39,937 nt of DNA from the NCBI GenBank assembly GCA_902384525.1, contig CABMCA010000083.1, forward strand, positions 1 through 39,937, written 5' to 3'. The stretch is from an uncultured archaeon (lineage in GTDB: Archaea; Halobacteriota; Methanosarcinia; Methanosarcinales; Methanoperedenaceae). The notes below the pieces were generated by a model that was not told where the DNA came from, searched no databases, and worked only from the letters and a program-made list of their open reading frames with translations. Of the stretch, positions 7,560-39,209 are shown in pieces (positions within the stretch are counted from its first letter, which is position 1; each line of letters starts with the position of its first letter). A program made the translations under genes and the position numbers.

Positions 7560-7995
7560 TTCCCCTCTTCACCCTCATTTTCTTCGCCTCCCTTAACACC
7601 TCATTCATTTGATCCAGGAACTCAGGCGGCATCCCCTGGCTTATCATAAGGAGCAGAATCGAAACTGCGCCCCTGTTGTAGAATTCCTTCGCGAGGGCTT
7701 CATAATTAATTTTCTCCATGCCGATCTCCTGCACCTGTTTCCAATCCTCCTCAAAAGTAAGAGCCAGCAACCCATGAGCCACCTTTTTACATCGTGGAAT
7801 ATGCTTCGAAATGTCTTCAGGTGTCATCTTCAGTTCTTCAGGAGAATAGCCCTTTTCCAGTAATTCCATACACCTGTCACAGGTCAGCATACCATTTTTG
7901 GGCTTCGGGCAGTCCATATCAATGCCGCAAATGGAGCAGCGAGTGTTTAACTTTCGGGTATTCTTTGCTTTTCCACTTCGTTTCTCCACCTTCAT
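7549..7995 (-). CDS. zinc-ribbon protein of unknown function, first gene of the cas operon
   Basis: 148 residues. A basic N-terminus (RSGKAKNTRK) is followed by a probable zinc ribbon with C20xxC23 and C39xxC42 (plus C29), then a helical C-terminal region. It is not a Cas family that I recognise. It is the promoter-proximal gene of the operon and overlaps the cas8 start by 11 nt. It is clearly more GC-rich than cas8, cas7, cas5 and cas3. It may be a resident gene behind which the cas genes landed, or an accessory protein. A TATA box 28 nt upstream suggests leaderless expression. Confidence 0.8.
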   Translation of the reverse strand: MKVEKRSGKAKNTRKLNTRCSICGIDMDCPKPKNGMLTCDRCMELLEKGYSPEELKMTPEDISKHIPRCKKVAHGLLALTFEEDWKQVQEIGMEKINYEALAKEFYNRGAVSILLLMISQGMPPEFLDQMNEVLREAKKMRVKRGSDE

Positions 7996-8011
7996 GAACT
8001 CTTTAAATTAT

Positions 8012-8032
8012 CTCTGAGATTATAAATCTTTT
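8012..8032 (-). promoter_or_regulatory. probable TATA box of the cas effector operon
   Basis: On the minus strand AAAGATTTATAATCTC is centred about 28 nt upstream of the ATG at 7995. This is the expected spacing for an archaeal TATA box driving a leaderless transcript. Confidence 0.55.
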
Positions 8033-8097
8033 TAGAGCGGAGTGAAACTATTTTTTCCCCTGATATCAGTGCAAATATTGTTAGTTGTGATATTTCA

Positions 8098-8172
8098 ACC
8101 GGTGATTTCATGTTAAACTCCGCCATCGGCGGCGCTTCAGTTGGGGTCCGGGGTCGCAACCCCGGCGCCGTT
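8098..8172 (-). repeat. dispersed GC-rich repeat, copy 3 (inverted, partial)
   Basis: The reverse complement reads AACGGCGCCGGGGTTGCGAC and continues through GCCGCCGATGGCGGAGTTTA to ATGAAATCACCGGTTG, matching the first 80 bp of copy 2. The remaining half of the repeat is absent. It sits between the cas6 stop and the operon promoter, in opposite orientation to copy 2. Confidence 0.8.
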
Positions 8173-8222
8173 AATATATGTTGATAGAAAGTTAATAGTA
8201 CTCTTATCTGCGGTTAAATTTG

Positions 8223-8957
8223 TCATATGTTGGCTTTCAATATATCAAGACACCCGAACCCCATGGCGTTTTTCTCTCCAAGACCTGCGTCATAGGCGAA
8301 CTTTAATAATTCAGGACTTGCCTGAAGGAGCAAACTGAACAAGCTGCAGCGCCTGTAACCTTCAGAAATCCTGATCCTTTTCGGCTTCATATCATATATC
8401 TCTATTATGTCAAAATGATCCTGCGGAACTTTATCATAGAATTCACTGAAACGCTGGATCAAATTCTTATGAAGATTCTCATAGAATTTCGGATCTTTCG
8501 GGTAAAGATCAACTTCTCTTAATTCCTCATTTTCTTTTCGTATCGTCTTGACATAAATTGGAGAAATTGCCTTGAACCGGCATTCATCTCCAAAACTTAT
8601 TTCTTCCAGGATTTCAATGCGCTCAATTACCAGGTCTACTTTCCCATCAGGTCCATCCAGGTAAAATCCAGGTTCCATCAGGAGCCCTTCTGCAAAACTC
8701 TTGATAAATCTATCATCTGGTGAAGATAAGATAAAATACGCATTCTCAAATAGAAGACCTGATCTGCAAAAGTCCCTATTTATAAAAACAAGATTGGAAA
8801 AAGTATAGAATTTAAATCCCTGGTGTGCATGTGTCTCATTAGCTAACCTTATGTCGGCTTCTGCAAGTTTAAAGTATAACATTGATGCAAGACCATATTG
8901 ATAATCGAAATTTACAGGACGTTTTGAAATATTCCTGATTGTTATTTTGCTCCTCAA
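8223..8957 (-). CDS. cas6: CRISPR RNA endoribonuclease Cas6
   Basis: 244 residues from the proposed TTG start. The N-terminal ferredoxin-like core is recognisable (NFDYQYGLASMLYFKL, then FKFYTFSNLVF). The C-terminal glycine-rich loop GLGEKNAMGFGCLDIL is the Cas6 hallmark. The enzyme cuts pre-crRNA at repeats. The TTG at 8957 has AGGAG five bases upstream and gives a normal Cas6 N-terminus. The frame stays open to ATG 9044 or 9062, which would add a 29-35 residue extension. It lies upstream of the effector operon in the same orientation, separated by repeat copy 3. No CRISPR repeats for it to process are present here. Confidence 0.9.
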   Translation of the reverse strand: MRSKITIRNISKRPVNFDYQYGLASMLYFKLAEADIRLANETHAHQGFKFYTFSNLVFINRDFCRSGLLFENAYFILSSPDDRFIKSFAEGLLMEPGFYLDGPDGKVDLVIERIEILEEISFGDECRFKAISPIYVKTIRKENEELREVDLYPKDPKFYENLHKNLIQRFSEFYDKVPQDHFDIIEIYDMKPKRIRISEGYRRCSLFSLLLQASPELLKFAYDAGLGEKNAMGFGCLDILKANI

Positions 8958-9074
8958 TTTTTCTCCTGTGTAATAATGATCAAGACTTTTTAACTGGCAT
9001 AAATCTTTCCCGGCTATTGTTGAGTTTGAGTAATTCAATTTCATAAGCTTAAACAATCCCATTTAAACCCTGTA

Positions 9075-18098: not shown

Positions 18099-18937
18099 AT
18101 TTTTTCCCTCTTTTGAAATATTCTTTCTTTCAAATCAAAACGTTTGAAAAGTTGGGTTGAAGGCCCTACCAGAGTCTCAGTTTTTCCCATAACAAAATAT
18201 CCCCCGTCATTCAGAGCATTATAAAAATTCATATACAATATCTCCTGTAATTTTTGTTCAAAATAAATTGTAACGTTCCTGCAAAATATAATATCAAAAC
18301 CTGAAAATTTCGGTCCTGAAATCAGATCATGGCGTTTCACCTTCACAAGCCTTTTTACTTCATCAATGACCTGGTAATTATTATCTTTCTTTACGAAAAA
18401 CCGATTGATCCTTTCCTGGCCTATTTTTTCAAGCTGTTTTGGCTGGAATATTGCCATTTCTGCTTTCGCAATTGAGTCATCATCGATATCTGTAGCCTGG
18501 ATCGAAATATTATATCTTTTGGCAGAACTTCCAAGGAATTCATTCAACATAATTGCGATCGAATAAGGTTCTTCACCATTTGAGCATCCTGCGCTCCATA
18601 CTTTGATGACTTTATTAATTCCCTTTTGTTTGATCAATTCCGGAAGAACATTGTTCCGGACAGAGTCAAATGTTTCCGGGTTCCTGAATAATTCCGTAAC
18701 ATTTACGGTTAATGTTTCTTTGAGCTTGTTTATTTCGTCCTCATTTTTTGACAGCACCTGTGCATAATCCCTGTAAGATTTTGACTCGGTCGCACGAAGC
18801 CTTACAGCAAGCCTTCTCTTCAGGTGAGGCTGTTTATAGTCTTCACAGTTAAATCCTATTTTTCTTTTAATGATATACTTCAAATCTGAAAATTCCTTCT
18901 CATCTTCACGTATGATGTCTGATAGTAAATTCATCAT
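18095..18937 (-). CDS. cheR: chemotaxis protein methyltransferase CheR
   Basis: 280 residues. An N-terminal helical domain (FSDLKYIIKRKIGFNCEDY) is followed by the methyltransferase domain with FRNPETFD, the SAM-binding VWSAGCSNGEEPYSIAI, and FCRNVTIYF near the active site, ending in MGKTETL. It methylates receptor glutamates using SAM. It overlaps cheA and cheC by four bases on each side. Confidence 0.95.
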   Translation of the reverse strand: MMNLLSDIIREDEKEFSDLKYIIKRKIGFNCEDYKQPHLKRRLAVRLRATESKSYRDYAQVLSKNEDEINKLKETLTVNVTELFRNPETFDSVRNNVLPELIKQKGINKVIKVWSAGCSNGEEPYSIAIMLNEFLGSSAKRYNISIQATDIDDDSIAKAEMAIFQPKQLEKIGQERINRFFVKKDNNYQVIDEVKRLVKVKRHDLISGPKFSGFDIIFCRNVTIYFEQKLQEILYMNFYNALNDGGYFVMGKTETLVGPSTQLFKRFDLKERIFQKREKI

Positions 18938-20850
18938 AATAATGTCCCCACATCAAGGATCAAAGCAACATTGCCGTCCCCAAGTATCGTGGCTCCTGCA
19001 AATCCCTTGACTCCTTTTAATATATTATTGTCAAGGTTCTTGATTATCACTTCCTGCTGGCCGACAACCTGGTCTACTACCAGCCCTACATTACTGCCTG
19101 CGCGTTCGACTACAACCACAAGAAGTTCTTCGGAGCCATTACCTTTAATGTCAAAGAGCGTATGTAATCGAACCAGAGGCAGGACATCTCCCCGTATCAG
19201 AACTACTTCTTCACCCTTGATCGTCTTTATTTCTTCTTTCTTAATTGACAGATCTCTTATAACATTAGTAATAGGTATGGCATAGATATCTGAACCAACT
19301 TTAACCATCAGTGAATGAATGATCGCAACAGTCAAAGGAAGCTTGAGTCTCATCATTGTTCCTTTCCCCAGGACAGATTCAAGTTTAATCGATCCGCCCA
19401 TTCCTCCGATCTTTGTCCGCACCACATCCATTCCTACTCCTCTTCCGGAGATTTCTGTTACCTTCTCAGCAGTACTGAATCCTGCCATGAATGACAGGTT
19501 TATCGCCTCAATATCGGAAAGTTTTGCTGCTTCTTCCTGTGTCATCAATCCTTTCTTTACAGCAGTTTCTCTCATTTTTTGCGGGTCCATCCCTTTGCCA
19601 TCATCAACCGCTTCAATAACAACATGATTTTTTTCCCGCCTTGCAGTCAGTTTGATCGTTCCTTTCTCGTTCTTGCCATTCTGTTTTCTTACCCCGGGGG
19701 ATTCAATACCATGGTCAATGCAATTCCTCAGGATATGCACAAGCGGGTCTCCAATTTCATCAAGTACTGTACGGTCAAGTTCAATATCCCCGCCTTCCAG
19801 GATCAAATCGATATCTTTCTCCTGATTCTTCGCAAGATCCCTTACCATTCTCGGGAACCGGTTAAATATCTGTTCAATAGGCACCATCCTTGATGCCATG
19901 ATCTCTTCCTGAAGGTCGTTAGTAAGGCGGTTAAGACTGGCAAGCGTCTCCTCAAGATCATCCAATTTATGCACACTGGCAAGCTGTATTAACCGGATTT
20001 TGTTTATAATAAGTTCCCCTACAAGATTCATCAACGAATCCAGGCGTTCTATGCTTACCCGTACACTCTGTACGCTTTTTATAGAGGTTTTACTCCCCTC
20101 GGTGACACACGTTTTTTCTTCAATTTTTTCCCTGGATTTAGAGCCTGTGTGGGATTTAACTTCCACTTTTGATATCTCGGATACTTTTTTTGACGCATCT
20201 TCTAATTTTTTGGCATCTTCTATTGTCGAAACTATGATCTTGAATTCCCGATCGAATTTTTCATCCTCCAGATCCTTTATCGGAGGAACTGTTTCAATAA
20301 TCTCGCCAATCTCAGATAGATTTCTCATTACTACTGTTGACCTGGCAGATTTAAGCATGCAGGATTCATGAAGCGTCACAGTTATTTCATAAATATTGCA
20401 GCCTGTTTCGGATTTTTCCCGGGGATTAATAGATGCATTAGTTTGAACTGTTTGCTCATCCTTTAATGGAACAGACACATAATCATTTCTTGATAATTTG
20501 CCAATGAGAGAAGCAATATCAATTTCTGAGGATTTTTCCGGCGTTTCCACCATTTTTTCAAGTGTATCAAGACATTCGAAAAGAACATCTATTGCAGAAG
20601 AGTCAAGCTTTATCTCATTTTTCCGGACCCTGTCCATCAGGTTTTCCATGTTATGGGTAAGTTCTTTAATATTGGTATAACCCATTGTTGCAGACATGCC
20701 TTTGAGGGTATGGGCTGCCCTGAACATCACATTTATGGTTTCACTGTTCGCCGGATCTTTTTCAAGACTGAGAAGTGCATCATTCATTGATTGGAGATGT
20801 TCCGCGGATTCAACTGCGAACATTTCTTTATATTCATCCATGTCATCCAT
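18934..20850 (-). CDS. cheA: chemotaxis histidine kinase CheA
   Basis: 638 residues. P1 has the phosphorylated H47 in AAHTLKGMSATMGY. A linker and P2-like region follow. P3 (SIERLDSLMNLVGELI) is the dimerisation helix. The ATPase domain has the N box ILRNCIDHGIE, G1 DDGKGMD and G2 GRGVGMDVV. P5 is the C-terminal CheW-like domain. It phosphorylates CheY and CheB in response to receptors. The downstream cheR starts in its stop codon. CheW and receptor genes are not in this window. Confidence 0.96.
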   Translation of the reverse strand: MDDMDEYKEMFAVESAEHLQSMNDALLSLEKDPANSETINVMFRAAHTLKGMSATMGYTNIKELTHNMENLMDRVRKNEIKLDSSAIDVLFECLDTLEKMVETPEKSSEIDIASLIGKLSRNDYVSVPLKDEQTVQTNASINPREKSETGCNIYEITVTLHESCMLKSARSTVVMRNLSEIGEIIETVPPIKDLEDEKFDREFKIIVSTIEDAKKLEDASKKVSEISKVEVKSHTGSKSREKIEEKTCVTEGSKTSIKSVQSVRVSIERLDSLMNLVGELIINKIRLIQLASVHKLDDLEETLASLNRLTNDLQEEIMASRMVPIEQIFNRFPRMVRDLAKNQEKDIDLILEGGDIELDRTVLDEIGDPLVHILRNCIDHGIESPGVRKQNGKNEKGTIKLTARREKNHVVIEAVDDGKGMDPQKMRETAVKKGLMTQEEAAKLSDIEAINLSFMAGFSTAEKVTEISGRGVGMDVVRTKIGGMGGSIKLESVLGKGTMMRLKLPLTVAIIHSLMVKVGSDIYAIPITNVIRDLSIKKEEIKTIKGEEVVLIRGDVLPLVRLHTLFDIKGNGSEELLVVVVERAGSNVGLVVDQVVGQQEVIIKNLDNNILKGVKGFAGATILGDGNVALILDVGTLL

Positions 20851-20861
20851 AATTATTTCCT

Positions 20862-21923
20862 CTATGTATTTTCCGTTATGCTCTGAGCAATTTTGTTAAT
20901 TGGTAAAATGTGATCTGCCAGTTTTTGGTCTATCACAGACCTTGGCATGCCATAAACCACGCATGTTGACTCATCCTCGGCTATCACCTTGCCACCTGCT
21001 GATTTTAGTTTCCTGATGCCATTTGTTCCATCAGAACCCATTCCTGTAAGTATTACCCCAAGTGTATTTTCTCCAAAGATCGGCGCCACAGAATCAAGAA
21101 GAACATCAATAGAAGGCCGTACACCCTGTACCTTTTCAGTCTTTGTGAGTGTGACTACTTCTCTAAGCTCACCATTAATATTTTGCTGTTTTACGATCAT
21201 ATGAAAATCCCCGGGAGCTATATAAACAGTTCCCACCTCCAGAATATCACCATCAACAGCCTCTTTCACTTTTAGCATGGATTGGGAATTCAAACGGTCT
21301 GCAAGGGATTTGGTAAATCCGGAAGGCATGTGCTGTACAATAAGGACAGGAGCACGAAGATTGGAAGGTAAAAAGGGTATGACCTGCTGTAATGCCCTGG
21401 GTCCGCCTGTGGAAGAACCTATTATTATTATCTTTTTAGTCCTGATTCTTTGTATGGATTCGATCTTTTCTTTCTTGCGAACGTTTACTTTCCGTTCTTC
21501 TATGAATCCAAGCTTATGTACCGCCACATTTGCAGCCGCTTTAACTTTTTTTATCAATTCATCTTTTATCTTGGCCATATCAAGGCTTATGTTCCCTGAA
21601 GGTTTCTGGATAAAATCAACTGCGCCATATTGGAACGCTGTCAGGGTAAGATCGGCTTGTTTTGATTCCTCACCACTTAACATAATAACGGGCGTGGGAC
21701 ACTCACTCATTATATAACCAAGCGCATGTAATCCGTCAAGAACAGGCATTTCAACGTCCATAGTGACTACATCAGGCCGGAGTTCAGTTATTTTTTCTAT
21801 TGCATCCTGTCCGTTTTTTGCCTTGCCTATAATTTCTATATCAGGAGAAGCTGCCAGAATATCAATAATGATTTTGCGCATGAACGCTGAATCATCAACT
21901 ACAAGAACTCTTATTCTGGGCAT
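20862..21923 (-). CDS. cheB: protein-glutamate methylesterase CheB
   Basis: 353 residues. Receiver domain with D10, D11 and phosphoacceptor D56 in VVTMDVEMPVLDG; linker; then the methylesterase domain with catalytic Ser in GSSTGGPRAL, His in VQHMPSGFTKSLADRL and Asp in ILTGMGSDGTNG. It removes receptor methyl groups. It lies 12 bp after cheY1 and 11 bp before cheA in the same operon. Confidence 0.96.
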   Translation of the reverse strand: MPRIRVLVVDDSAFMRKIIIDILAASPDIEIIGKAKNGQDAIEKITELRPDVVTMDVEMPVLDGLHALGYIMSECPTPVIMLSGEESKQADLTLTAFQYGAVDFIQKPSGNISLDMAKIKDELIKKVKAAANVAVHKLGFIEERKVNVRKKEKIESIQRIRTKKIIIIGSSTGGPRALQQVIPFLPSNLRAPVLIVQHMPSGFTKSLADRLNSQSMLKVKEAVDGDILEVGTVYIAPGDFHMIVKQQNINGELREVVTLTKTEKVQGVRPSIDVLLDSVAPIFGENTLGVILTGMGSDGTNGIRKLKSAGGKVIAEDESTCVVYGMPRSVIDQKLADHILPINKIAQSITENT

Positions 21924-21935
21924 TGCTAGACCTGA

Positions 21936-22292
21936 TCACATATTCTTGGAAACAGCTTCCAGAACTTTTGCAGCGTCAAATGGTTTCACAATAAAATCCC
22001 TTGCTCCGATCTTGATTGCATCATTTACTACAGTCTGCTGTCCGATTGAACTGCACATAACGACTTTTGCATTACTGTCTAAAGCCATTATTTGCTTCAG
22101 GCATTCAATACCATCAACGTTTGGCATGACTATATCGCAGAATACAAGATTCGGTTTATGTTCTTTGTATTTTACAATACCGTCCGAACCATCGACTGCT
22201 TCTAATAATTCATGTCCTGTCGGTGCAATGATCTTTTTAAGCATCATTCGCATGAATGCCGCATCATCCACCAGTAATATTTTTCCAGCCAT
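21936..22292 (-). CDS. cheY: chemotaxis response regulator CheY (copy 1)
   Basis: 118 residues forming a stand-alone receiver domain: D9 and D10, phosphoacceptor D53 in FCDIVMPNVDG, the switch serine S81 in VVMCSSIGQQ, and K103 in IVKPFD. All key residues are present. It leads the cheY-cheB-cheA-cheR-cheC operon and has its own promoter at 22371-22400. It should carry the signal from CheA to the archaellum switch, in archaea through CheF. Confidence 0.95.
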   Translation of the reverse strand: MAGKILLVDDAAFMRMMLKKIIAPTGHELLEAVDGSDGIVKYKEHKPNLVFCDIVMPNVDGIECLKQIMALDSNAKVVMCSSIGQQTVVNDAIKIGARDFIVKPFDAAKVLEAVSKNM

Positions 22293-22370
22293 TATTCCTC
22301 CGAGATATTATTTTTTGATTTCCATGTTTTAAAGTTGATTTCGTTATACATGCTATTCCCAACCACATCA

Positions 22371-22400
22371 GTATATACAAAAGTGTGATATTGGTGTGAT
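22371..22400 (-). promoter_or_regulatory. cheY1 operon promoter with TCACA direct repeat
   Basis: On the minus strand two TCACA half-sites 11 nt apart (22384-22388 and 22395-22399) lie directly upstream of TTTTGTATATAC (TATA at 22371-22378). The predicted transcription start near 22348 leaves a leader of about 55 nt. The same arrangement occurs at cheY2 and the archaellin operon. Confidence 0.65.
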
Positions 22401-22446
22401 ATTACATGATTACACATCATCAGTGTCAATGCAGCAGTCTGAAAGA

Positions 22447-22809
22447 TCAGGCTGGCACATTTTTATAAAAAATTGCCAGGACTTTTGCTGCATCAAATGG
22501 CTTGATAATATAACCCCCTGCACCCATTTTAATTGCCTCATTTACTACCGTTTGCTGCCCTATCGAGCCGCAAATAATGACTTTAGCATTACTGTCATGT
22601 GCCATTATTTGTTTCAGGCATTCGATCCCGTCAACATTTGGCATCATTATATCCAGGAACACAAGGTCAGGTTTATGTTGCTTATATTTGGACACACCAT
22701 CCGACCCATCAGCAGCTTCAATTAATTCATTTCCAGTCGGAGCAAGGATTTTTTTCAGCATCATTCTCATAAAAGGTGCATCATCCACAAGCAATATTTT
22801 TCCGATCAT
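22447..22809 (-). CDS. CheY-like response regulator (copy 2) lacking the switch Ser/Thr
   Basis: 120 residues, highly similar to CheY copy 1 along its whole length. D9, D10, D53 (VFLDIMMPNVDG) and the lysine in IIKPFD are conserved. The position equivalent to S81 of copy 1 is glycine (VIICGSIGQQ), so the usual Ser/Thr switch is missing. The C-terminus also differs (AIFYKNVPA). It could be a phosphate sink or a regulator with altered activation. The gene and its promoter region look like a tandem duplication of cheY1. Confidence 0.93.
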   Translation of the reverse strand: MIGKILLVDDAPFMRMMLKKILAPTGNELIEAADGSDGVSKYKQHKPDLVFLDIMMPNVDGIECLKQIMAHDSNAKVIICGSIGQQTVVNEAIKMGAGGYIIKPFDAAKVLAIFYKNVPA

Positions 22810-22882
22810 TTTTCCTCGATATATTATTTCGTAGATTTCTATATTTTAAAGCTGTTATCATTAATGATGGTCAATCACACCG

Positions 22883-22913
22883 ATATATACAAAAGTGTGA
22901 AATTTAGTGTGAT
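22883..22913 (-). promoter_or_regulatory. cheY2 promoter with TCACA direct repeat
   Basis: Minus-strand TCACA half-sites 12 nt apart (22896-22900, 22908-22912) precede CTTTTGTATATAT (TATA at 22883-22890). A TCACAC on the plus strand at 22875-22880 makes an additional inverted arrangement around the TATA box. The predicted leader is about 50 nt. It begins immediately after the arlJ stop. Confidence 0.65.
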
Positions 22914-22923
22914 CTCATTATCA

Positions 22924-24576
22924 TTACAAACCCAATAGCGGCCCCATCCCCTGAATTGTCAATTCAGCAGTCAGCGCAGAAATCCAGACAAGTCCTACAA
23001 AATGAGTATAGGTATTAAAATGATGACCCCCATCAACAATTCTTATTAGCATTGCAGACATAAGTGAATGACACACCATCATTATCATAAGCATAGTAGT
23101 CATCAGTGGAATATTAGTGGCAGAAATCGTAGCAATTGAAATCCCTATATCGATATCGGGAATCGAAACATTTGAAAACATTTTTGCCAGCATTGCAATT
23201 ATAGACACAGCAAGGAACATAGTCGCTGCAATTCCTGCGGTCATGCCATAAAGCACGCCTATCAGGCTTGAAGCGCTGCTATATCTCAATTTTCTCATTG
23301 AAAGTATACTCATAAAATTGTGGCTTATAATATCTCCGATTAAAGCTGGTTTCCCACCCACATTTGTTCCTTCCACGAACATCGTTGCAAAACGTTCAAT
23401 CAGATTACTCCCTGTTCCTGCAGCGAAATGCTCCCATGAACGCGGAGTATTGAGCCTTGTTCTGAGTCTCTTATACAGGTTATTTACATTTTCTGAAAGC
23501 GGGCCGAAATCATGAGAAATCAATTCTTTTAGTGACTCAAGAATAAGTCCGCTTCTTGACCCTGCAGCCCCGCCAAGAGAACGGATGAAGGCTCCAAAAT
23601 TATTATCATACCTTTTTATCTTATTTTCCTCAGTCCGCGCTATCAGTCCGGTAAGTAATAACGGAGTTAACGAAGTAGCAAACATTATAGTTGTTGGTAA
23701 TTTAGAAAATGGAACAACAATTCCCGTAACGATTATACAGAGGAATAAAGAAACCGGCATAGACCATTTGATCCTGCGGTCAGCAGTTGTCTCGATTTCA
23801 AGTGTATGCCATATCCTGTCGGCAGGAACCTTTGACCTGGCATATAACAATATTACAAATTCCGTACCTATGAACAAGACTATTGCGCCGCCAAGCAGTA
23901 ATATGGAATCCATGCCCGTAATTATTGGCATGATGATCGCGAATGCTACTATGAATATGAGGGACATGCACATTGAAATAAACATTTCTTTTATCATATC
24001 TATAGAATTCAAAGAGTCCTGGTACATGGTCACAAAATCCTTCATTACCACGGTTTGCTCGGATAACACGAACTCTCGGAAATCCTGCCCTGCCTGGACA
24101 GAATGCGCCATCCGATCAAGAAAGTCCGAAAAAAGAATGGAAGGTGTCCGCTGGGCTATGAATCTGCATGCAACCGGGAAACTTACATGCCAGTAGTAAA
24201 TAAGAGCATGTATCCTTCCTGTCTCTTTTGCCAGATAACCATAAGCTTCAGTATGTGACAGTTTGAGTAACAGATCAACCCTTGTCATCTGGGAAGTAGC
24301 AAGAACACCCATATGTGTAATATAGTAATGTATATTATTGTCAATTTCTTTTTTTTTCCCTTCCAGGCTTGATATGGGATATATTATCACCATTGCAAAT
24401 AGTGCAATGGGGACAAGCATTACACCCAGGAAAAGAACTCCTTCCATGACTGAAGGCACAAGTAGCAGGATTATAATTGGAAATAAAATCGCTAAAATAG
24501 TTATCGGGATCACAAAATTCATAAAATAGTTTTTTTGCGAGATCCCAAGGCAATGGAATATGACTTTTGTGTTCAT
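22924..24576 (-). CDS. arlJ: archaellum membrane platform protein ArlJ (FlaJ)
   Basis: 550 residues, a polytopic membrane protein of the TadC/GspF family with hydrophobic spans clustered near residues 18-70, 200-255 and 280-320 and at the C-terminus. GAAGSRSGLILESLKELI and a cytoplasmic helical domain (NNLYKRLRTRLNTPRSWEHF) fit ArlJ. It anchors the ArlI motor. It is the last gene of the archaellum operon and starts three bases after arlI ends. Confidence 0.94.
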   Translation of the reverse strand: MNTKVIFHCLGISQKNYFMNFVIPITILAILFPIIILLLVPSVMEGVLFLGVMLVPIALFAMVIIYPISSLEGKKKEIDNNIHYYITHMGVLATSQMTRVDLLLKLSHTEAYGYLAKETGRIHALIYYWHVSFPVACRFIAQRTPSILFSDFLDRMAHSVQAGQDFREFVLSEQTVVMKDFVTMYQDSLNSIDMIKEMFISMCMSLIFIVAFAIIMPIITGMDSILLLGGAIVLFIGTEFVILLYARSKVPADRIWHTLEIETTADRRIKWSMPVSLFLCIIVTGIVVPFSKLPTTIMFATSLTPLLLTGLIARTEENKIKRYDNNFGAFIRSLGGAAGSRSGLILESLKELISHDFGPLSENVNNLYKRLRTRLNTPRSWEHFAAGTGSNLIERFATMFVEGTNVGGKPALIGDIISHNFMSILSMRKLRYSSASSLIGVLYGMTAGIAATMFLAVSIIAMLAKMFSNVSIPDIDIGISIATISATNIPLMTTMLMIMMVCHSLMSAMLIRIVDGGHHFNTYTHFVGLVWISALTAELTIQGMGPLLGL

Positions 24577-24579
24577 ATT

Positions 24580-26211
24580 TCATACCTCAAAAGGAATACC
24601 TTCAAGACCTCTTGCCTGGTATGCCCAGATTATATCCCTTACTTTATAATAATCCAGGATATTTTCTTCTACCATCCTGGTAAGTATTTTGGCACGTAAA
24701 GCAAGGTCATCATATATCAGGCGCTTATCGTCATAACCCTGCTTGGTAGCTATCTTGTCAAGGAGGAAACTATTATTCATACCCCTGAAACGATGCCTGT
24801 CATTTGTAAAATCCCATTCAAAAACTCCCCGGGTTATTACACCTCCTGCTTCTTCCAGATACCCTTCGATCTCATCAACCGATGTGCATCTTCGCAAATA
24901 TTTGCCTTTTCGGTATATTGCCTGAAGTATCAAAGCTGCATTGAGGTTATCAGCAAATGTTGGCGGGATATTTATAGGTTCACCAGTAAGCCTCTGGAGA
25001 AGTTTTCTGACAGATGAAGCATGGAACGTGGCAAGAACAGCATGTCCGGTCTGCATTGCCTGGAATGCGACTGCGCCCTCTGCGCCCCTGATTTCACCCA
25101 CTATGATATAGTTTGGTCTTGACCGCAGGGCAACCTTTAAGAGAGTAAATGTATCTACCTGGGATTCAACCGGGCCATCAAGCCGTGTGATCAACTGCTG
25201 CCATGCTGGCTGTGGCGGAAGTACTTCAGCGGTATCTTCTACTGTATACATCTTTGATTTGCTGCTAATGAAAGGCAATGCAGCGTTAAGCATTGTTGTT
25301 TTGCCGCTTGCTGTTTCACCGCTAAAAAAAATGCTCATCTGGTTCTCAAGCAAAAGCCAGAGATATGCGCAAAGATTTGCGTCTACACTTCCCCACTTGA
25401 TAAGCTGGGGAATACTCGCCGGCACTTCCATGAATTTTCTCATGGTAAAACTGGAACCTTTCCGGCTGATGTCAGTACTATAAATAGCCGCAATTCGTGT
25501 ACCATCACCAAGAGAACCATCGATCAGGGGGCGCGCGTCGCTTACGGGCCTGCCGATGCGTTCACCCACAGTATGCAGCCAATGACTCAGGTTTTCCTGG
25601 GTGCCAAAGGTCAGATTGGTTGTAAGCATATTCATTATCTTATGGACTATGTATATACCGCTTACTCCAATACTATGAATATCTTCAAGGTAAGGATCCC
25701 TTATTACAGGTTCTATCGGCCCCTGGCCGATAACATCCCGGTCAAGGAAATAAGAGATTTTATCATATTCATCCTGAGTTAAAGATATGGATTTTGCTCC
25801 AAGAAATTTATCCAATATTCCAATTGGTACCAGTTTCCCCGCAATATGGACAGATTCATTAAAAAGTTTCATCATTAACTTTCTCAATTGTTCCTCATTT
25901 TCAGGAACTATCTCATCAGCAGCTTTTTCAAGAATGGTATCCATTATAGCCTTATATTTTTTCGTCTCATCCGGGGATAGGGCTGGCTCAATCGCAATAT
26001 AAAAAATTTGCTTTGTGACCTTGTCACCTTTTAGATGGATAAATATCGGGTCGCCCACAGGATAAATTATGGAAGGTACAGGAATGTCTACAATATCACG
26101 GGATAATTTAGGCATGAAGTCCGGCATTATCCCGCTTTCTTTCCTGCATTTATCCACATATTCCGCCAGATGCGGGTTTCTTTTCAGGGCTTCTTCGAAT
26201 TTATCATCCAT
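24580..26211 (-). CDS. arlI: archaellum ATPase ArlI (FlaI)
   Basis: 543 residues, type II/IV secretion ATPase family. Walker A FSGETASGKTTMLNAAL, Asp box near MYTVEDTAEV, Walker B VGEIRGAEGAV and the His box TGHAVLATFHASS. A long N-terminal domain contacts ArlJ. It powers both assembly and rotation of the archaellum. The gene lies 13 bp after arlH. Length and motifs are normal. Confidence 0.95.
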   Translation of the reverse strand: MDDKFEEALKRNPHLAEYVDKCRKESGIMPDFMPKLSRDIVDIPVPSIIYPVGDPIFIHLKGDKVTKQIFYIAIEPALSPDETKKYKAIMDTILEKAADEIVPENEEQLRKLMMKLFNESVHIAGKLVPIGILDKFLGAKSISLTQDEYDKISYFLDRDVIGQGPIEPVIRDPYLEDIHSIGVSGIYIVHKIMNMLTTNLTFGTQENLSHWLHTVGERIGRPVSDARPLIDGSLGDGTRIAAIYSTDISRKGSSFTMRKFMEVPASIPQLIKWGSVDANLCAYLWLLLENQMSIFFSGETASGKTTMLNAALPFISSKSKMYTVEDTAEVLPPQPAWQQLITRLDGPVESQVDTFTLLKVALRSRPNYIIVGEIRGAEGAVAFQAMQTGHAVLATFHASSVRKLLQRLTGEPINIPPTFADNLNAALILQAIYRKGKYLRRCTSVDEIEGYLEEAGGVITRGVFEWDFTNDRHRFRGMNNSFLLDKIATKQGYDDKRLIYDDLALRAKILTRMVEENILDYYKVRDIIWAYQARGLEGIPFEV

Positions 26212-26224
26212 GATGATCTCACCC

Positions 26225-26917
26225 TTATGAAACTCCGGAAATGTTGATCATGACACCGCTTTTTGCTTCTACCTTGAATCCGATCATTGCCCCAACCTGT
26301 ATTTCGGGATTCGAATATTTGTTTATGACCATAGTTCGCAGCATTTCAGTCCCCATCTGCCGCATTTTGATTGTTATCATGATCTCAGCTGCATCTTTAA
26401 ATTCGGAAACTACATGAGCAGGCATCTCTGTAGTGTCCATTGTAATAATGATCGTTTTCTGTAAACCTGTTATTTTCTTGAAAAATGAAATAAGCTCAAG
26501 GCTTTTCTGTGCATCAGTCCCATATCGGATAAGCGCCGAAAGAGTATCTATAATAATTATGTTTTTTTCATAAAGTCCTTCCGCACCCATAAGGCGCTGG
26601 AGAAAATCAATCCGGGGCTTTGATTCTTTTAACAATGGAAAAACCGGAATATACAATAGTTCGCCTTTTAGCAACCTGATCCCTATCGGATAATCAATTG
26701 ATTTCATCTGCCGGATGAAATTTTTCGTGGTTAATTGAGTTGAAATATAGGTGACTGTATTTTTATTGTCAAGAAGACCATAAGCAAATCTCTGGCACAG
26801 TGCGCTTTTTCCGCTTCCGCTGGGACCGTCTATCATTATCAGGGAACCTTTCGGAAAACCGCCCCCCAGCATCTGGTTCAATTCGTCCCTGTCAAGCACA
26901 AAATTATATCCTGCCAT
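26225..26917 (-). CDS. arlH: archaellum accessory ATPase ArlH (FlaH)
   Basis: 230 residues, RecA/KaiC-like fold. Walker A GPSGSGKSALCQRF near residue 35 and the Walker B strand NIIIIDTLSALI. It binds ATP, forms a ring on ArlI and is thought to regulate the motor. Positioned 2 bp after arlG and before arlI, the canonical order. Confidence 0.94.
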   Translation of the reverse strand: MAGYNFVLDRDELNQMLGGGFPKGSLIMIDGPSGSGKSALCQRFAYGLLDNKNTVTYISTQLTTKNFIRQMKSIDYPIGIRLLKGELLYIPVFPLLKESKPRIDFLQRLMGAEGLYEKNIIIIDTLSALIRYGTDAQKSLELISFFKKITGLQKTIIITMDTTEMPAHVVSEFKDAAEIMITIKMRQMGTEMLRTMVINKYSNPEIQVGAMIGFKVEAKSGVMINISGVS

Positions 26918-26919
26918 AT

Positions 26920-27375
26920 CTATGGTGTCCTGAATGAAAAAGTATCTTCAATTCCGTTATTCGTTATTACCCTGATATTATGACTGCTTGCGGAAAGCGA
27001 GGTTGTCGCATTAATTTGCAGTACATCTCCTGAAAGCCACATCGGATCGTTACCTAAAATTGTTTTGTTAAGGTTGCTGTCAATAACAATAGTTCCGTCT
27101 ATAATAACTGTAACATATTGTATGCCGAGATTTTCTTTCCCCGTATTTTTTACATAAAATGTATAAATGCCGCTGCTACTGTTATAAGGTATCGATTCAG
27201 GATCGCTTATGATGGTGATATCCGTTTTCAATTGTTCCGCAAATGTCTTACTCCCGACAATTGCTGCTGAGGAGATCGATTGGATGTTCAGGAAAATTGC
27301 TCCAACTATACTCAATGCAATTATTACAGATGTGATGAAAAAGACCATCTGAGTTGCTGATGCGCCTGCTCCCAT
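26920..27375 (-). CDS. arlG: archaellum stator-associated protein ArlG (FlaG)
   Basis: 151 residues. One N-terminal transmembrane helix (TQMVFFITSVIIALSIVGAI) followed by a beta-rich external domain with TDITIISDPESIPY and YTFYVKNTGKENLG, typical of ArlG. With ArlF it forms the stator filament that binds the S-layer. It sits 9 bp after arlF. Confidence 0.92.
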   Translation of the reverse strand: MGAGASATQMVFFITSVIIALSIVGAIFLNIQSISSAAIVGSKTFAEQLKTDITIISDPESIPYNSSSGIYTFYVKNTGKENLGIQYVTVIIDGTIVIDSNLNKTILGNDPMWLSGDVLQINATTSLSASSHNIRVITNNGIEDTFSFRTP

Positions 27376-27384
27376 TTTTATCTC

Positions 27385-27783
27385 CTAGGTCAGTGAATAA
27401 TAATCAGCTGCACCATTTTCGGTTATAATCTTCACTCTGCCGCTTACAAATGCGATCGTTATATTGATGGATGTCTCAGGCGGCCAGACGCCGCCTGGAT
27501 TTACACTATAAGACGAATTGAATTTCCCGTTTAATATTACATTGATCTTACTGGAATTAAGGGTCATTGAACCATTATTAAATACAGTCAGGTTTCTGCT
27601 ACCCTGGTCCCAGTTCGTGATTACTATTTTGGTATTCAATTTTTCATTCCATAATTCATTTGAACTTTTTTTTGCTTCCTGGACCTGCCGATATGACATA
27701 TCCGCCATAGGATAGAACATTGACGCCATTTGCAGAATGGACGCAATGAATATAACTATAACAGCAGAGGTTGAAAAACCCAT
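27385..27783 (-). CDS. arlF: archaellum S-layer-binding protein ArlF (FlaF)
   Basis: 132 residues. The start MGFSTSAVIVIFIASILQMA is the typical ArlF N-terminal helix. The rest is a beta-sandwich domain with N-glycosylation sequons (NLT, NGS, NSS). ArlF binds S-layer protein and holds the motor static. It follows the third archaellin by 15 bp with no arlC, arlD or arlE gene in between. Confidence 0.92.
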   Translation of the reverse strand: MGFSTSAVIVIFIASILQMASMFYPMADMSYRQVQEAKKSSNELWNEKLNTKIVITNWDQGSRNLTVFNNGSMTLNSSKINVILNGKFNSSYSVNPGGVWPPETSINITIAFVSGRVKIITENGAADYYSLT

Positions 27784-27798
27784 AGGATATCTCCACTG

Positions 27799-28449
27799 TT
27801 ATGGATATAGTCGTACGTACCTGTTTACTCCGAACGAGTTTGGAGTTGCTATTTCGAGATTTACAGCTTGCCCTAATTCCTGGTTCAAAGATAGCCAGAA
27901 GGTTTTTCTCGGGGCTAAGGTTATACCCTGTATGGCATTGTAAGATACCTTGATTTCTATTAAATCTCCACTGTTAAGTACAGGAGTTGTATTAGAAAAT
28001 GACTTATCTTCATCCCGCACTGATATAGCAGTATAAGTTGTGTTAGTAGTGTTACTACCGTTAGTAACATTATAAACTTCACTTGAAAAATTTAGATCAT
28101 AGCGTTTAGTAGAATCCATAATCGTTACAATAACCTGCCTCAAATCTATCGAAGTAGTACCTACATCCGGTTTAATCCTGATCAATAGATCATTTATTGA
28201 TTGATTCATAGTTCCATTGCCCGCATCACCTCTATCTCCAAGAACCTGCTCCACAACGATATTTGAAGATATCTGCTGCGTGGCCTCTTTGCTTGTCTTT
28301 GTAGCTTTCTGCTGAAGCGCCCCTGTTGTGTATATCAGTACTGTGGCAGCTACTGCGGCGACAAGCACCATCGCAATGAATATGATCAAAGTGCCAACTC
28401 CGATATCACCCCTTTCATTGTCTGTCAGGAATTTCTGGTTTGCTTTCAT
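27799..28449 (-). CDS. arlB3: archaellin (third, with canonical processing site)
   Basis: 216 residues. A class III signal peptide of 14 residues ends in NERG, cut before DIGVGTLIIFIAMVLVAAVA, the conserved hydrophobic helix that packs the filament core. The exposed domain carries many N-glycosylation sequons (NGT, NQS, NFS, NVT, NGS, several NTT). Of the three archaellins it is the only one with basic -2 and Gly -1. AAAGGAG precedes the start. It lies downstream of a hairpin-T6 element that may reduce its expression. Confidence 0.94.
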   Translation of the reverse strand: MKANQKFLTDNERGDIGVGTLIIFIAMVLVAAVAATVLIYTTGALQQKATKTSKEATQQISSNIVVEQVLGDRGDAGNGTMNQSINDLLIRIKPDVGTTSIDLRQVIVTIMDSTKRYDLNFSSEVYNVTNGSNTTNTTYTAISVRDEDKSFSNTTPVLNSGDLIEIKVSYNAIQGITLAPRKTFWLSLNQELGQAVNLEIATPNSFGVNRYVRLYP

Positions 28450-28473
28450 ATATACTCCTTTCCTTTAAAAAGG

Positions 28474-28498
28474 AAAAAATTCCCCTTTATCAGGGGAA
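28474..28498 (-). terminator. hairpin plus T-run between archaellins 2 and 3
   Basis: On the minus strand TTCCCCT-GATAA-AGGGGAA is followed immediately by TTTTTT. The seven-base stem encloses the stop codon of archaellin 2. It has the shape of an intrinsic terminator inside the operon and could give partial termination or an RNA-processing site, lowering archaellin 3 and the motor genes relative to the first two archaellins. Confidence 0.6.
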
Positions 28499-29086
28499 TA
28501 ACTGGACATAATTCTTGGTTCCCCAGGTTGCAGGGGCTATTATTTCCCTCATTACCATTGTGCCTGATTCCGGAACTATCTCAATAAGGCCTTTTTCCCT
28601 GAGACCTAATCCGTTAGTCGGTTTAATTGTAATTATACCAAGGTCACCTACTTGCAGGACTTTATTCGCGGTTCCGGTAAATCGCTCTTCAGTGTAGTTA
28701 AACATCGTTGAATCCAAACTAGATGTATTACTACTACTGTAATTCATTGTATCCGTTTTCCCGCTATCAATATATCTCACAACAACAGATTGGAAATCAA
28801 TATTTTGCCCGCCAGCCGATAATTGTATAGCTACGGTAAAGTTTGCAATCTTCGATGTACCCGTATTAACATTCCCGATAATCGATACAATATTCAAATT
28901 GGAAGTGACTTCTGTTGCTGCTTCCTTACCAGTCTGCTGTGCTTTTTGCTGCAGAATGCCGGATGTCTGGATCAGCACTGCTGCTGCAACTGCTGCTACC
29001 AGGACCATCGCTATAAATACTATTAATGTCCCTATGCCAACATCTGCCGTATCATTTATCAATATGCTATTTTTTTGTTTATTCAT
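28490..29086 (-). CDS. arlB2: archaellin (second)
   Basis: 198 residues. Leader of 14 residues ending NDTA, then DVGIGTLIVFIAMVLVAAVA. The globular part has sequons NFT, NYS, NTS and NYT and ends in a typical archaellin C-terminus (TWGTKNYVQLFP). The -1 residue is Ala and there is no basic residue at -2 or -3, unlike archaellin 3. AAGGTGA precedes the start. It is the middle archaellin of three. Confidence 0.94.
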   Translation of the reverse strand: MNKQKNSILINDTADVGIGTLIVFIAMVLVAAVAAAVLIQTSGILQQKAQQTGKEAATEVTSNLNIVSIIGNVNTGTSKIANFTVAIQLSAGGQNIDFQSVVVRYIDSGKTDTMNYSSSNTSSLDSTMFNYTEERFTGTANKVLQVGDLGIITIKPTNGLGLREKGLIEIVPESGTMVMREIIAPATWGTKNYVQLFP

Positions 29087-29113
29087 ATTTTCACCTTCTA
29101 AAGAATTTTTCCT

Positions 29114-29680
29114 TCATGGGAATAACTGATACTGGGTATTTCCTCCAAATGTTGATGGGGCAACAATATCTTTTATTACCATAGTGCCTTTTTCAGGAAT
29201 AATCTGGATGGTGGCGGATTTCCTGGCTGATAAATTCATACTGTTACCAGAAAGATTAACATTAAATTTGCCCAGATCGCCTGGCGAGAGAATATTGGCA
29301 TCTGCATCTAACATTCGTTCTTCAGTATAAGTTTGAGAAATGTTAATAAAATTTGCATGACTATCATCTATATATTTCACTACAGCTTTTCTTATATCAA
29401 CAGGATTCCCACCGGCTGATATCTCTATTGAAAAGTTAAGTGACGTAGCATTTTCGTCTGCTACAGTAGCGACGATCGATACAATTTTCAAGTTGGAAGA
29501 TATTTCCGATGTGGCTTCCTTGCCTACAGTTGTTGCTTTTTTCTGAAGTATCCCGGATGTCTGGATCAACACTGCTGCTGCTACCGCCGCAACAAGTACC
29601 ATGGCGATAAATATGATTAGAGTGCCTATACCGACATCGGCGTCTTCATTTTTTATTAATTTTGTTCCTTTAGCTTTCAT
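29114..29680 (-). CDS. arlB1: archaellin (first of the operon)
   Basis: 188 residues. Leader of 14 residues ending NEDA, then DVGIGTLIIFIAMVLVAAVA. The outer domain has sequons NAT, NFS, NIS and NLS and ends FGGNTQYQLFP. As the promoter-proximal gene it is probably the major filament subunit. The -1 residue is Ala with acidic -2 and -3, atypical for prepilin peptidases of the FlaK/PibD type. The start is preceded by CGGAGGCG. Confidence 0.94.
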   Translation of the reverse strand: MKAKGTKLIKNEDADVGIGTLIIFIAMVLVAAVAAAVLIQTSGILQKKATTVGKEATSEISSNLKIVSIVATVADENATSLNFSIEISAGGNPVDIRKAVVKYIDDSHANFINISQTYTEERMLDADANILSPGDLGKFNVNLSGNSMNLSARKSATIQIIPEKGTMVIKDIVAPSTFGGNTQYQLFP

Positions 29681-36840: not shown

Positions 36841-37617
36841 TTAAATTGAAATTATTATTTCATCTTCCTGCTTCTTACCAAACATTTTCGCTGCATTCCC
36901 CGTGTTCACTGCTATCTCAAGAAACCCATGGCTGCCTATCAATATAAGAGGATCGCCCTCTTTGAAAAATGCATATGAACTACCAAATATTACCCTTCTT
37001 TTCCCGATCCGTAATTCATCCCCGGGCCGAAAATCCCCTGATTCTGCGGAAATATTCGTGATAATATTACCGAATGAGTCAATATATATGACTGTGCCAT
37101 GAATGGAACCATTCACTTTTTTCCCCTTCCCAAAATCAAGATCTTTATAATCAAGGATACGTCCACCTAAATTTTCGATCCTTGATCCTTTTGAAATATG
37201 CGCCCCCACCGGAGCAAAAATATCCCTTCCATGAAAAGTGCATGATATATTTCTTTGAAATAGATTTGTATTTGAAATCTCATATACTTCTATCGTTCCG
37301 ATGCTTTTTGCGGCAGGGATAAGAAGACCGTTGTCCGGCCCGATAAAATAATGGGTATCACCGTCCAGGGATACTGCCTTGATCGCAATTTCGCGCCTTT
37401 TTGTCCCGACACCAGGATCAACTACTGCTATATGGACAGTTCCGGACGGGAAATATCTTGCACAAGTCATTAATATGAATGCTCCGGCGCGTATATCATG
37501 GCGGGGTATTGAATGTGTGATGTCCACAATGTTTGCATCGGGATCAATTCCGAGTATTACGCCTTTCATGGATGCCGGATATACATCCCCGAAATCTGAA
37601 AGCAGGGTTATTACCAT
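36841..37617 (-). CDS. SAM hydroxide adenosyltransferase (DUF62 family)
   Basis: 258 residues. Family motifs are complete: LLSDFGDVYPASMKGVILGI, DITHSIPRHDIRAGAF, AVVDPGVGTKRREIA, GPDNGLLIPAA and CTFHGRDIFAPVGAHIS. The enzyme hydrolyses S-adenosylmethionine to adenosine and methionine and is related to fluorinase/chlorinase. Its role in archaea is unclear. The gene ends with a flexible lysine/acidic tail. Nothing unusual is seen. Confidence 0.92.
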   Translation of the reverse strand: MVITLLSDFGDVYPASMKGVILGIDPDANIVDITHSIPRHDIRAGAFILMTCARYFPSGTVHIAVVDPGVGTKRREIAIKAVSLDGDTHYFIGPDNGLLIPAAKSIGTIEVYEISNTNLFQRNISCTFHGRDIFAPVGAHISKGSRIENLGGRILDYKDLDFGKGKKVNGSIHGTVIYIDSFGNIITNISAESGDFRPGDELRIGKRRVIFGSSYAFFKEGDPLILIGSHGFLEIAVNTGNAAKMFGKKQEDEIIISI

Positions 37618-37664
37618 ACAAGAAACATTTAATACCTGCTAAACTATAAAACCCGTTGTCAAAT

Positions 37665-37738
37665 GGACTCGTGGGGTAGCCAGGATATCCTGGCGGGCTT
37701 CGAACCCGCAGACCCGCGTTCGAATCGCGGCGAGTCCG
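37665..37738 (+). tRNA. tRNA-Arg (TCG)
   Basis: Acceptor GGACTCG/CGAGTCC, anticodon stem GCGGG/CCCGC with loop CTTCGAA (anticodon TCG), T arm CCGCG-TTCGAAT-CGCGG, discriminator G. No intron, no encoded CCA. It lies between two minus-strand genes. Confidence 0.93.
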
Positions 37739-37830
37739 TTAATTTTTATCAAAGTGAAAAAAAGGTTTGGATTTTAAATATAAAATAAAAAAATATGTAA
37801 AACAATTTCCGGCTTATAACCGGAAATGGT

Positions 37831-39003
37831 TCATTGTAACCAATACCATATCAGGATCAGTATTATTAATAGTATTATTGCATACCAGACATAATTACTG
37901 CTCTTTTCTTCTTCAACCTTTGGTTGTGGTCTTGGCGTCTCGATCCTTGGCGCAGGTTTTGGTTTTGGTGGCTCTGGCTTTGGCTCTGGTTCACGCACCG
38001 GTTCAGGTTCAGGCTCTTTGACTTTTTCCGCAGAGCCTGATATGAACGGGCTTTGAACACCAGTCAATACTGCCATAACACGGACTTTTCCTGTCAGGCT
38101 GTTATCTACTTTTGCGCCCCAGATTATCCTCTTGGTATTCGGGACCTTGTCCATGATCAATTCACCAGTAACTGCTACTTCTTCCAGTGTCAGGTCTTCG
38201 CCACCTACGATGTGGATTAGCACACCATAACAATCGGAAATATTTGTAACGTCAAGCAGTGGTGTACTGATGGCCTGCGAAACAGCTTTTATAACTCTAT
38301 CCACACCATCTCCTTCACCAATACCTATCGAAGAGATACCGCCGCGTTCCATTACAGCGCGAAGGTCTGCATAGTCAAGGTTCACAAGGCTTGGCTGGGT
38401 GATAGTATCTGTAAGATTCTTTACGAATGCACCAACGAGTGCATTGGCAACATTAAGGGCTTCTTTTAAGGGCAGGTTTCCTGCAACTTCCCTTAATTTT
38501 GAGTTATCAATAATTACCACAGAGTCACAGGATTCTGCAAGCAGTTTTATTGCTTCTCTTGCTTTCTCCCTTCTTGACATTTCAATCGTAAATGGGATTG
38601 TGACGCAGCCGATGGTAAGTGCGTTAACGGAGCGGGTCAGCTCTGCAACAACCGGTATTGCGCCAGTTCCGGTTCCACCACCCAATCCAGCGACCAGGAA
38701 TACAAGATTTGTACCTTCAAGTTCTGTTTTTAATTCATCGATATTCTCTCTTGTAGCCTGTGCACCCATTTCCGGATAACCGCCGCATCCGTGACCCTTG
38801 CATATTTTTTCCCCGAGTAAGATCACTTTATCAGCTTTTTGAACGTAAAGATGATTTACATCAGTATTTGCTGCAATTATCCTTCCGCCTGTAATACCTT
38901 TTTCTGCAATCCAGGTCGTAATATTACAACCTGCACCACCTAAGCCTACGACGGCAACTGATGGTTTTGCTGTTTTTGCAAACTCTTTTAGATCCGTAAC
39001 CAT
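37831..39003 (-). CDS. FtsZ-family GTPase with C-terminal transmembrane anchor
   Basis: 390 residues. The tubulin/FtsZ core has VVGLGGAGCNITTW, ANTDVNHL, the signature GLGGGTGTGAIPVVAEL and the T7 loop NLDYADLRAVMERGG with its catalytic Asp. Unlike ordinary FtsZ, a Pro/Glu/Lys-rich linker (about residues 325-368, many PEP repeats) leads to a terminal hydrophobic helix of about 20 residues ending WYWLQ. It is thus membrane-anchored without FtsA or SepF. AAGGAGG precedes the ATG. It may form a membrane-bound filament for division or cell shape. Confidence 0.9.
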   Translation of the reverse strand: MVTDLKEFAKTAKPSVAVVGLGGAGCNITTWIAEKGITGGRIIAANTDVNHLYVQKADKVILLGEKICKGHGCGGYPEMGAQATRENIDELKTELEGTNLVFLVAGLGGGTGTGAIPVVAELTRSVNALTIGCVTIPFTIEMSRREKAREAIKLLAESCDSVVIIDNSKLREVAGNLPLKEALNVANALVGAFVKNLTDTITQPSLVNLDYADLRAVMERGGISSIGIGEGDGVDRVIKAVSQAISTPLLDVTNISDCYGVLIHIVGGEDLTLEEVAVTGELIMDKVPNTKRIIWGAKVDNSLTGKVRVMAVLTGVQSPFISGSAEKVKEPEPEPVREPEPKPEPPKPKPAPRIETPRPQPKVEEEKSSNYVWYAIILLIILILIWYWLQ

Positions 39004-39135: not shown

Positions 39136-39209
39136 TGGGCCCGCGGAGATTCGAACTCCGGATCTCCGCCATGTCAAGGCGACGTCATAACCAACTAGAC
39201 CACGAGCCC
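39136..39209 (-). tRNA. tRNA-Val (GAC)
   Basis: On the minus strand: acceptor GGGCTCG/CGGGCCC (one G-T pair), anticodon loop TTGACAT (anticodon GAC) on stem TCGCC/GGCGG, T arm CGGAG-TTCGAAT-CTCCG, discriminator A. No intron. Confidence 0.95.

Follow-up and report, generated by a model that had tools for sequence, protein, structure and literature searches.

The window, by which we mean the whole stretch of DNA analyzed (39,937 nucleotides), carries on its minus strand at 37831..39003 an open reading frame that has an ATG start codon with an AGGAGG-like site upstream and encodes an FtsZ protein of 390 residues. Orthologs, a phylogenetic tree and matches to Pfam and NCBIfam models place this predicted tail-anchored protein in subgroup A of a clade that we call FtsZ3. 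The immediate upstream neighbor is a tRNA-Val (gac) gene (39136..39209, minus strand) and a tRNA-Arg (tcg) gene lies downstream (37664..37739, plus strand); both are outside the system described here. Beyond the latter is a SAM hydroxide adenosyltransferase gene (SAM_HAT, 36841..37617, minus strand), which was present in 12 of 28 neighborhoods compared and is probably unrelated to the FtsZ system. Elsewhere in the window are Type I CRISPR-Cas genes (2318-9062; a Cas3-like helicase, a DevR/Csa2-like Cas7, a CXXC-CXXC protein and Cas6) and, about 7 kb from the ftsZ gene, a chemotaxis and archaellum cluster (18934-29680) encoding CheA, CheB, an archaellum ATPase and membrane protein, and three archaellins. 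The named relatives of the ftsZ gene come almost entirely from Candidatus Methanoperedens, a genus of anaerobic methanotrophic archaea, and the host is a member of this genus.

An earlier note on this sequence had described a complete FtsZ GTPase core with a T7 loop, followed by a Pro-Glu-Lys linker and a terminal transmembrane (TM) helix. All of these parts were borne out. The core plus FtsZ_C domain comprises residues 1-318 (38050..39003, minus strand) and scored 131.9 bits with Pfam Tubulin and 90.3 bits with FtsZ_C, both above the curated cut-offs, as well as 338 bits with the NCBIfam ftsZ equivalog model (cut-off 295). The tubulin signature GGGTGTG (residues 108-114; 38662..38682, minus strand) has conserved glycines that are invariant in a 59-sequence alignment. 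The T7 catalytic loop NLDYADL (residues 208-214; 38362..38382, minus strand) has the NxDxxD pattern, with N208 and D213 invariant in the same alignment and D210 at least 90% conserved. The protein thus has the domains and both motifs of the FtsZ superfamily. An AlphaFold2 model built with the 59-sequence alignment gave an FtsZ fold to about residue 318, disorder over residues 323-368 and a helix at residues 369-389. The top Foldseek match of the core was the Methanocaldococcus jannaschii FtsZ 2vap (E 6e-41, rmsd 1.9), an FtsZ1 and the closest solved structure.

The segment that links core to tail (residues 323-366; 37906..38037, minus strand) is predicted to be disordered and is composed largely of Pro, Glu and Lys (14, 11 and 6 of its 44 residues, respectively); its length and sequence differ between orthologs. 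The C-terminal helix (residues 369-389; 37837..37899, minus strand) was modeled with pLDDT values of 91-95. Because it has no charge, a mean Kyte-Doolittle hydropathy over 19 residues (KD19) of 2.39 and a hydrophobic moment of about zero, it is predicted to be transmembrane rather than amphipathic. The same tail is found in the orthologs. Terminal KD19 values were 2.25-2.97 in 30 of 30 loci (L009-L038, the window gene itself plus 29 orthologs), and an uncharged C-terminal stretch of 20-29 residues was found in the 29 complete sequences. A copy in a sister-genus genome (G032) had a terminal KD19 of 3.04. A survey of TM-bearing FtsZ proteins, which the earlier note had called for, found strongly hydrophobic tails in our Halobacteriota sample only in the Methanoperedens orthologs and G032; none of 68 FtsZ-type sequences from other Halobacteriota genomes exceeded a hydropathy of 1.02 within the last 60 residues. 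With one C-terminal TM helix and no N-terminal TM segment, the protein has the layout of a tail-anchored protein, as judged from sequence and structure prediction.

The TM-tailed ortholog was found in 30 of the 31 genus genomes searched (that of the window included) at 79-97% identity; one of these sequences is cut by a contig start and another has an in-frame stop. The sole genome of the 31 in which it was not found, G028, is 68% complete. The G032 ortholog is 71% identical. As a rule there is one such gene per genome, and the named genomes that have it, among them those of M. nitroreducens and BLZ2, stem from many independent projects. The pN/pS ratio is 0.09 for the core, 0.39 for the linker and 0.40 for the TM segment. 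Purifying selection on the core is strong; the weaker constraint on linker and TM segment fits a need for hydrophobicity alone and does not speak for specific TM contacts. As the source genomes are nearly all metagenome assemblies, the tail could be thought an artefact of assembly, or the gene a decaying paralog. However, the same tail in the 30 genus loci and in G032, across many independent assemblies, rules out the artefact that the earlier note had named as fatal to its reading, and with the core pN/pS value makes this explanation as a whole vanishingly improbable. A second alternative is that the TM-bearing FtsZ is a non-polymerizing membrane GTPase, acting on other FtsZ proteins as a regulatory switch or receptor. 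Such a role would suit a strongly conserved protein that usually occurs once per genome among several tail-less paralogs, but the residues for polymerization-coupled GTP hydrolysis have been kept, including those of the T7 loop, which completes the active site of the next subunit. We consider a switch of this kind quite improbable.

Eight tubulin-type genes were found in the host genome. FtsZ1 (L001, at C48) and FtsZ2 (L002, at C16) are both present, as is SepF. The FtsZ2 protein ends in the peptide SIIDQIL and its gene is preceded by a ribbon-helix-helix (RHH_1) gene, an arrangement known for FtsZ2 (PMC9871819). A gene at C55 (L008, G000:C55:19593-20126) encodes a CetZ-like protein with a CetZ_C match below cut-off, which may represent the Halo.Tub type of PMC9871819. 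The remaining five genes, the window gene among them, group together in a tree of 79 sequences from Halobacteriota. With their orthologs and three ANME-1 sequences they form a third clade (support 100/100; stem 1.6 changes per column), beside FtsZ1 (support 100/99) and FtsZ2 (100/100). FtsZ3 is our working name for this clade, since the NCBIfam model names all members FtsZ. The window FtsZ is about 38-43% identical to FtsZ1 and FtsZ2 and grouped with neither in the 79-sequence tree. It has neither an RHH gene upstream nor the FtsZ2-type terminal peptide, and in Pfam searches it matched FtsZ_C and not CetZ_C. The window protein is neither an FtsZ1 nor an FtsZ2 but a member of a third FtsZ clade in archaea. 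The earlier note had proposed a phylogeny against these groups and a search for the two ordinary genes, and had held that its reading would fall if this were the only FtsZ of the genome. The genome contains FtsZ1, FtsZ2 and four further third-clade genes.

The third clade falls into subgroups that differ mainly behind the core. Subgroup A, to which the window gene belongs, combines the linker with a TM helix, found in no other subgroup. Subgroup C has a linker followed by a conserved helical tail (about PKEVVKPLREAMEHM...ISKAAVFSKEK), and the proteins of subgroups B, D, E and F end soon after the core and are nearly tail-less. In 15 of 27 named loci (L044, L052, L056 and 12 others) SRP54 precedes the subgroup A gene by 29-127 bp in the same orientation, and in other loci, the window included, the A gene lies near the SAM hydroxide adenosyltransferase gene. 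The SRP54 adjacency could be taken as a functional link to membrane insertion; we do not rely on it, as it is missing in the remaining named loci. Subgroup B genes (L064, L066, L074 and other loci; G000:C73 in the host) lie directly behind two CdhD-family genes in 18 of 21 loci. CdhD-family proteins are acetyl-CoA decarbonylase/synthase subunits, and this is an odd site for a cytoskeletal gene. The Methanoperedens loci alone showed no operon that accounts for function.

We searched for the clade in 238 genomes of the class and 393 genomes of the phylum. FtsZ3 was found only in Methanoperedens, in G032 and in two genomes of one genus (g97) of the Methanophagales (ANME-1); it was not found in other members of g97, nor in close relatives, in which FtsZ1 and FtsZ2 are present. 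Further matches were rejected. Those in G479 and G545 (46%) adjoin ribosomal and NusG-like genes and the G479 copy groups with FtsZ1, as does L220 of the pair L220/L221 (49%). A search of the viral_contigs set gave no relative of the FtsZ3 genes; Borgs have been reported to carry large FtsZ/tubulin homologs (PMC9605863).

The ANME-1 locus of Methanophagales Kmv05 (L104:3173-7089) brings the clade together with a second protein family. Adjoining FtsZ2 is the gene order FtsZ3 - two-TM protein - FtsZ3, in which the middle gene (L104:5615-5968) encodes 117 residues that include two TM segments and one long helix. One of the flanking FtsZ3 proteins has a Pro/Glu/Lys linker and no TM helix, and its counterpart ends in a C-type tail. 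Either a frameshift or an assembly error has shortened the first FtsZ copy of the second ANME-1 genome, G356 (L121:3519-4262), to 247 residues. Homologs of the two-TM protein were present in 18 of 18 Methanoperedens genomes tested, with two each in 17; those of the host are at G000:C109:11617-11961 and G000:C101:2178-2516. The Methanoperedens form tested matched no Pfam family, the model of a Methanoperedens homolog had a pTM of only 0.44, and in Methanoperedens these genes are not adjacent to the FtsZ3 genes. Within the 393-genome phylum sample (apparently one sample), the five genomes with FtsZ3 were also the only five with the two-TM protein. The two-TM protein was not found in ANME-1 genomes that lack FtsZ3, even those of the same genus, and it was not detected in G032, a 67% complete genome that has FtsZ3. 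The co-occurrence spans only two lineages, which are probably linked by one transfer, and so represents few independent events. The gene order and the shared genomes support the two-TM protein as a possible dedicated membrane partner of the third clade.

Cores and tails have not evolved as one. In a core-only tree a single clade of TM-tailed sequences was rejected (AU p 0.0003), as was a single clade of C-tailed sequences (AU p 0.005). The cause lies in G032, where the A core is sister to the C core although their tails differ. These two cores are 83% identical to one another versus about 70-77% to their genus counterparts, and each protein has kept the tail of its subgroup. The two FtsZ3 copies of ANME-1 likewise have cores that cluster in the tree, with patches of 92-100% DNA identity that suggest recent gene conversion between the copies. 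Either gene conversion homogenizes the cores or tails have been gained or exchanged repeatedly. Homogenized cores under different tails are what might be expected of co-assembling subunits. This is suggestive only, as concerted evolution can result from conversion between similar genes without contact between the proteins.

These data bear on whether the TM-bearing FtsZ is instead an extra subunit of the division ring, one that copolymerizes with FtsZ1 or FtsZ2 and provides an integral anchor, in effect a ZipA-like role built into FtsZ. The identity to FtsZ1 and FtsZ2 given above, the equivalog cut-off that is still passed and the ANME-1 FtsZ3 pair that adjoins FtsZ2 are all in keeping with such a subunit. 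Against it, the long stem parts FtsZ3 from the other two clades, close relatives that have FtsZ1 and FtsZ2 do without FtsZ3, the host already has SepF and an FtsZ2 with its terminal SIIDQIL peptide, and the homogenization of cores proceeds within the FtsZ3 clade and not with FtsZ1 or FtsZ2. We therefore regard a ring subunit as unlikely.

The explanation that we prefer, with a probability of roughly 0.55 for the whole, is that the tail-anchored FtsZ holds mixed filaments of FtsZ3 paralogs at the membrane, apart from the SepF-anchored ring. The C-terminal tail would insert into the membrane as in other tail-anchored proteins; ArsA/Get3-type ATPases are encoded in the host genome, a family also present in 14 of 14 control genomes. 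The GTPase core would remain cytoplasmic, with the extended linker of about 50 residues bridging the gap to the membrane, and the single TM helix would fix the subunit there without FtsA, ZipA or SepF. The clade would have expanded in Methanoperedens into the TM-anchored A proteins, the helical-tailed C proteins and the nearly bare cores of B, D, E and F. Subgroup A would seed a GTP-driven mixed FtsZ3 filament and hold it on the membrane. The conserved tail of subgroup C probably binds a partner, and the two-TM/coiled-coil protein could be a membrane-side partner or receptor that with C forms a further link of the filament. Support for this mechanism comes from conservation of the catalytic core and T7 residues across the clade, and support for a separate system from the presence of FtsZ1, FtsZ2 and SepF in the same genome together with the third-clade stem. 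The filament system would act on the cell envelope, perhaps by constriction, or on cell shape. We infer its topology, polymerization, co-assembly, partner role and cellular function from these comparisons. The broader proposal, that the tail-anchored FtsZ, its co-evolving paralogs and the two-TM protein make up a third archaeal FtsZ system of membrane-bound mixed filaments, independent of SepF as well as of the FtsZ1/FtsZ2 ring, that passed by gene transfer between anaerobic methanotrophs of two classes, is more tentative, at somewhat less than even odds.

A cytoskeleton for cell shape or surface appendages, equivalent in function to CetZ and uninvolved in division, would differ from the preferred explanation in output only, the mechanism being the same. 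A lineage-restricted expansion into multiple copies, as for CetZ in haloarchaea, the availability of ordinary FtsZ1 and FtsZ2 for division and the chemotaxis/archaellum cluster in the window are consistent with it. However, the protein is a true FtsZ by its FtsZ_C domain and equivalog score, the genome has a separate CetZ-like protein, and clustered archaellin-like genes were near the ortholog in only two other loci, and hence we judge it rather unlikely. The suggestion of the earlier note that the protein belongs to a third, membrane-bound tubulin-type system is supported and largely holds: the third clade and the TM tail stand, and filaments of its own are a plausible extension. That note had missed that the genome has five clade members, one of which has a TM helix, as well as the ANME-1 members and the co-occurring small membrane protein.

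In the general view FtsZ filaments depend on an adaptor or on a peripheral helix for contact with the membrane. The window protein shares with archaeal FtsZ1 and FtsZ2, which work with SepF (PMC8178401, PMC8187382), the fold, the GTPase and T7 motifs, FtsZ_C and the order of core, linker and C-terminal element. Unlike these, the window FtsZ falls outside both clades, has its own TM helix and lacks an FtsZ1- or FtsZ2-type terminal peptide, and FtsZ3 is confined, in the genomes searched, to Methanoperedenaceae and a single genus of ANME-1. An Odinarchaeota FtsZ1 binds membranes directly without an adaptor by an N-terminal amphipathic helix (PMC12583498), whereas the window FtsZ has a C-terminal integral helix behind a linker and belongs to the third clade. 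Mycoplasma and chloroplast FtsZ proteins are cited in PMC12583498 as binding membranes directly through an N- or C-terminal element; these are bacterial or plastid proteins, and the open-access text consulted gave no report of an integral helix. Within the FtsZl1 family, N-terminal TM helices were described in 2010 for a crenarchaeal protein (PMC2875224). That family is highly diverged with its TM segments N-terminal, whereas the window protein has a canonical FtsZ core and a C-terminal TM helix, no Tubulin_2 match, and no vWA-type or other partner neighbors seen at its locus or those of its orthologs. CetZ of Haloferax is likewise an archaeal multi-paralog tubulin family besides FtsZ1 and FtsZ2, but it has CetZ_C where the window protein has FtsZ_C. 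To our knowledge CetZ lacks a TM anchor. Our searches of the open-access literature turned up neither a canonical FtsZ bearing a C-terminal TM helix nor the FtsZ3 clade, and the text of a 2023 family survey (PMC9871819) mentions neither Methanoperedens nor FtsZ3. The family belongs to the known FtsZ kind, its TM-tailed variant and third clade are apparently undescribed in that literature, and the earlier note's last reservation, that the family might already be well described, fell away within it.

The host genus matters for methane removal. FtsZ transcripts have been reported in Methanoperedens studies (PMC11208441, PMC11337218, PMC12138975), and such reports cannot be read unless it is specified which of the seven FtsZ genes is meant. 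An FtsZ with an integral anchor beside a full FtsZ1, FtsZ2 and SepF set would be the natural equivalent of the membrane-targeted FtsZ that has been engineered for reconstitution, and the five FtsZ3 paralogs plus the small membrane protein provide a concrete gene set for studying how tubulin-type filaments may shape membranes.
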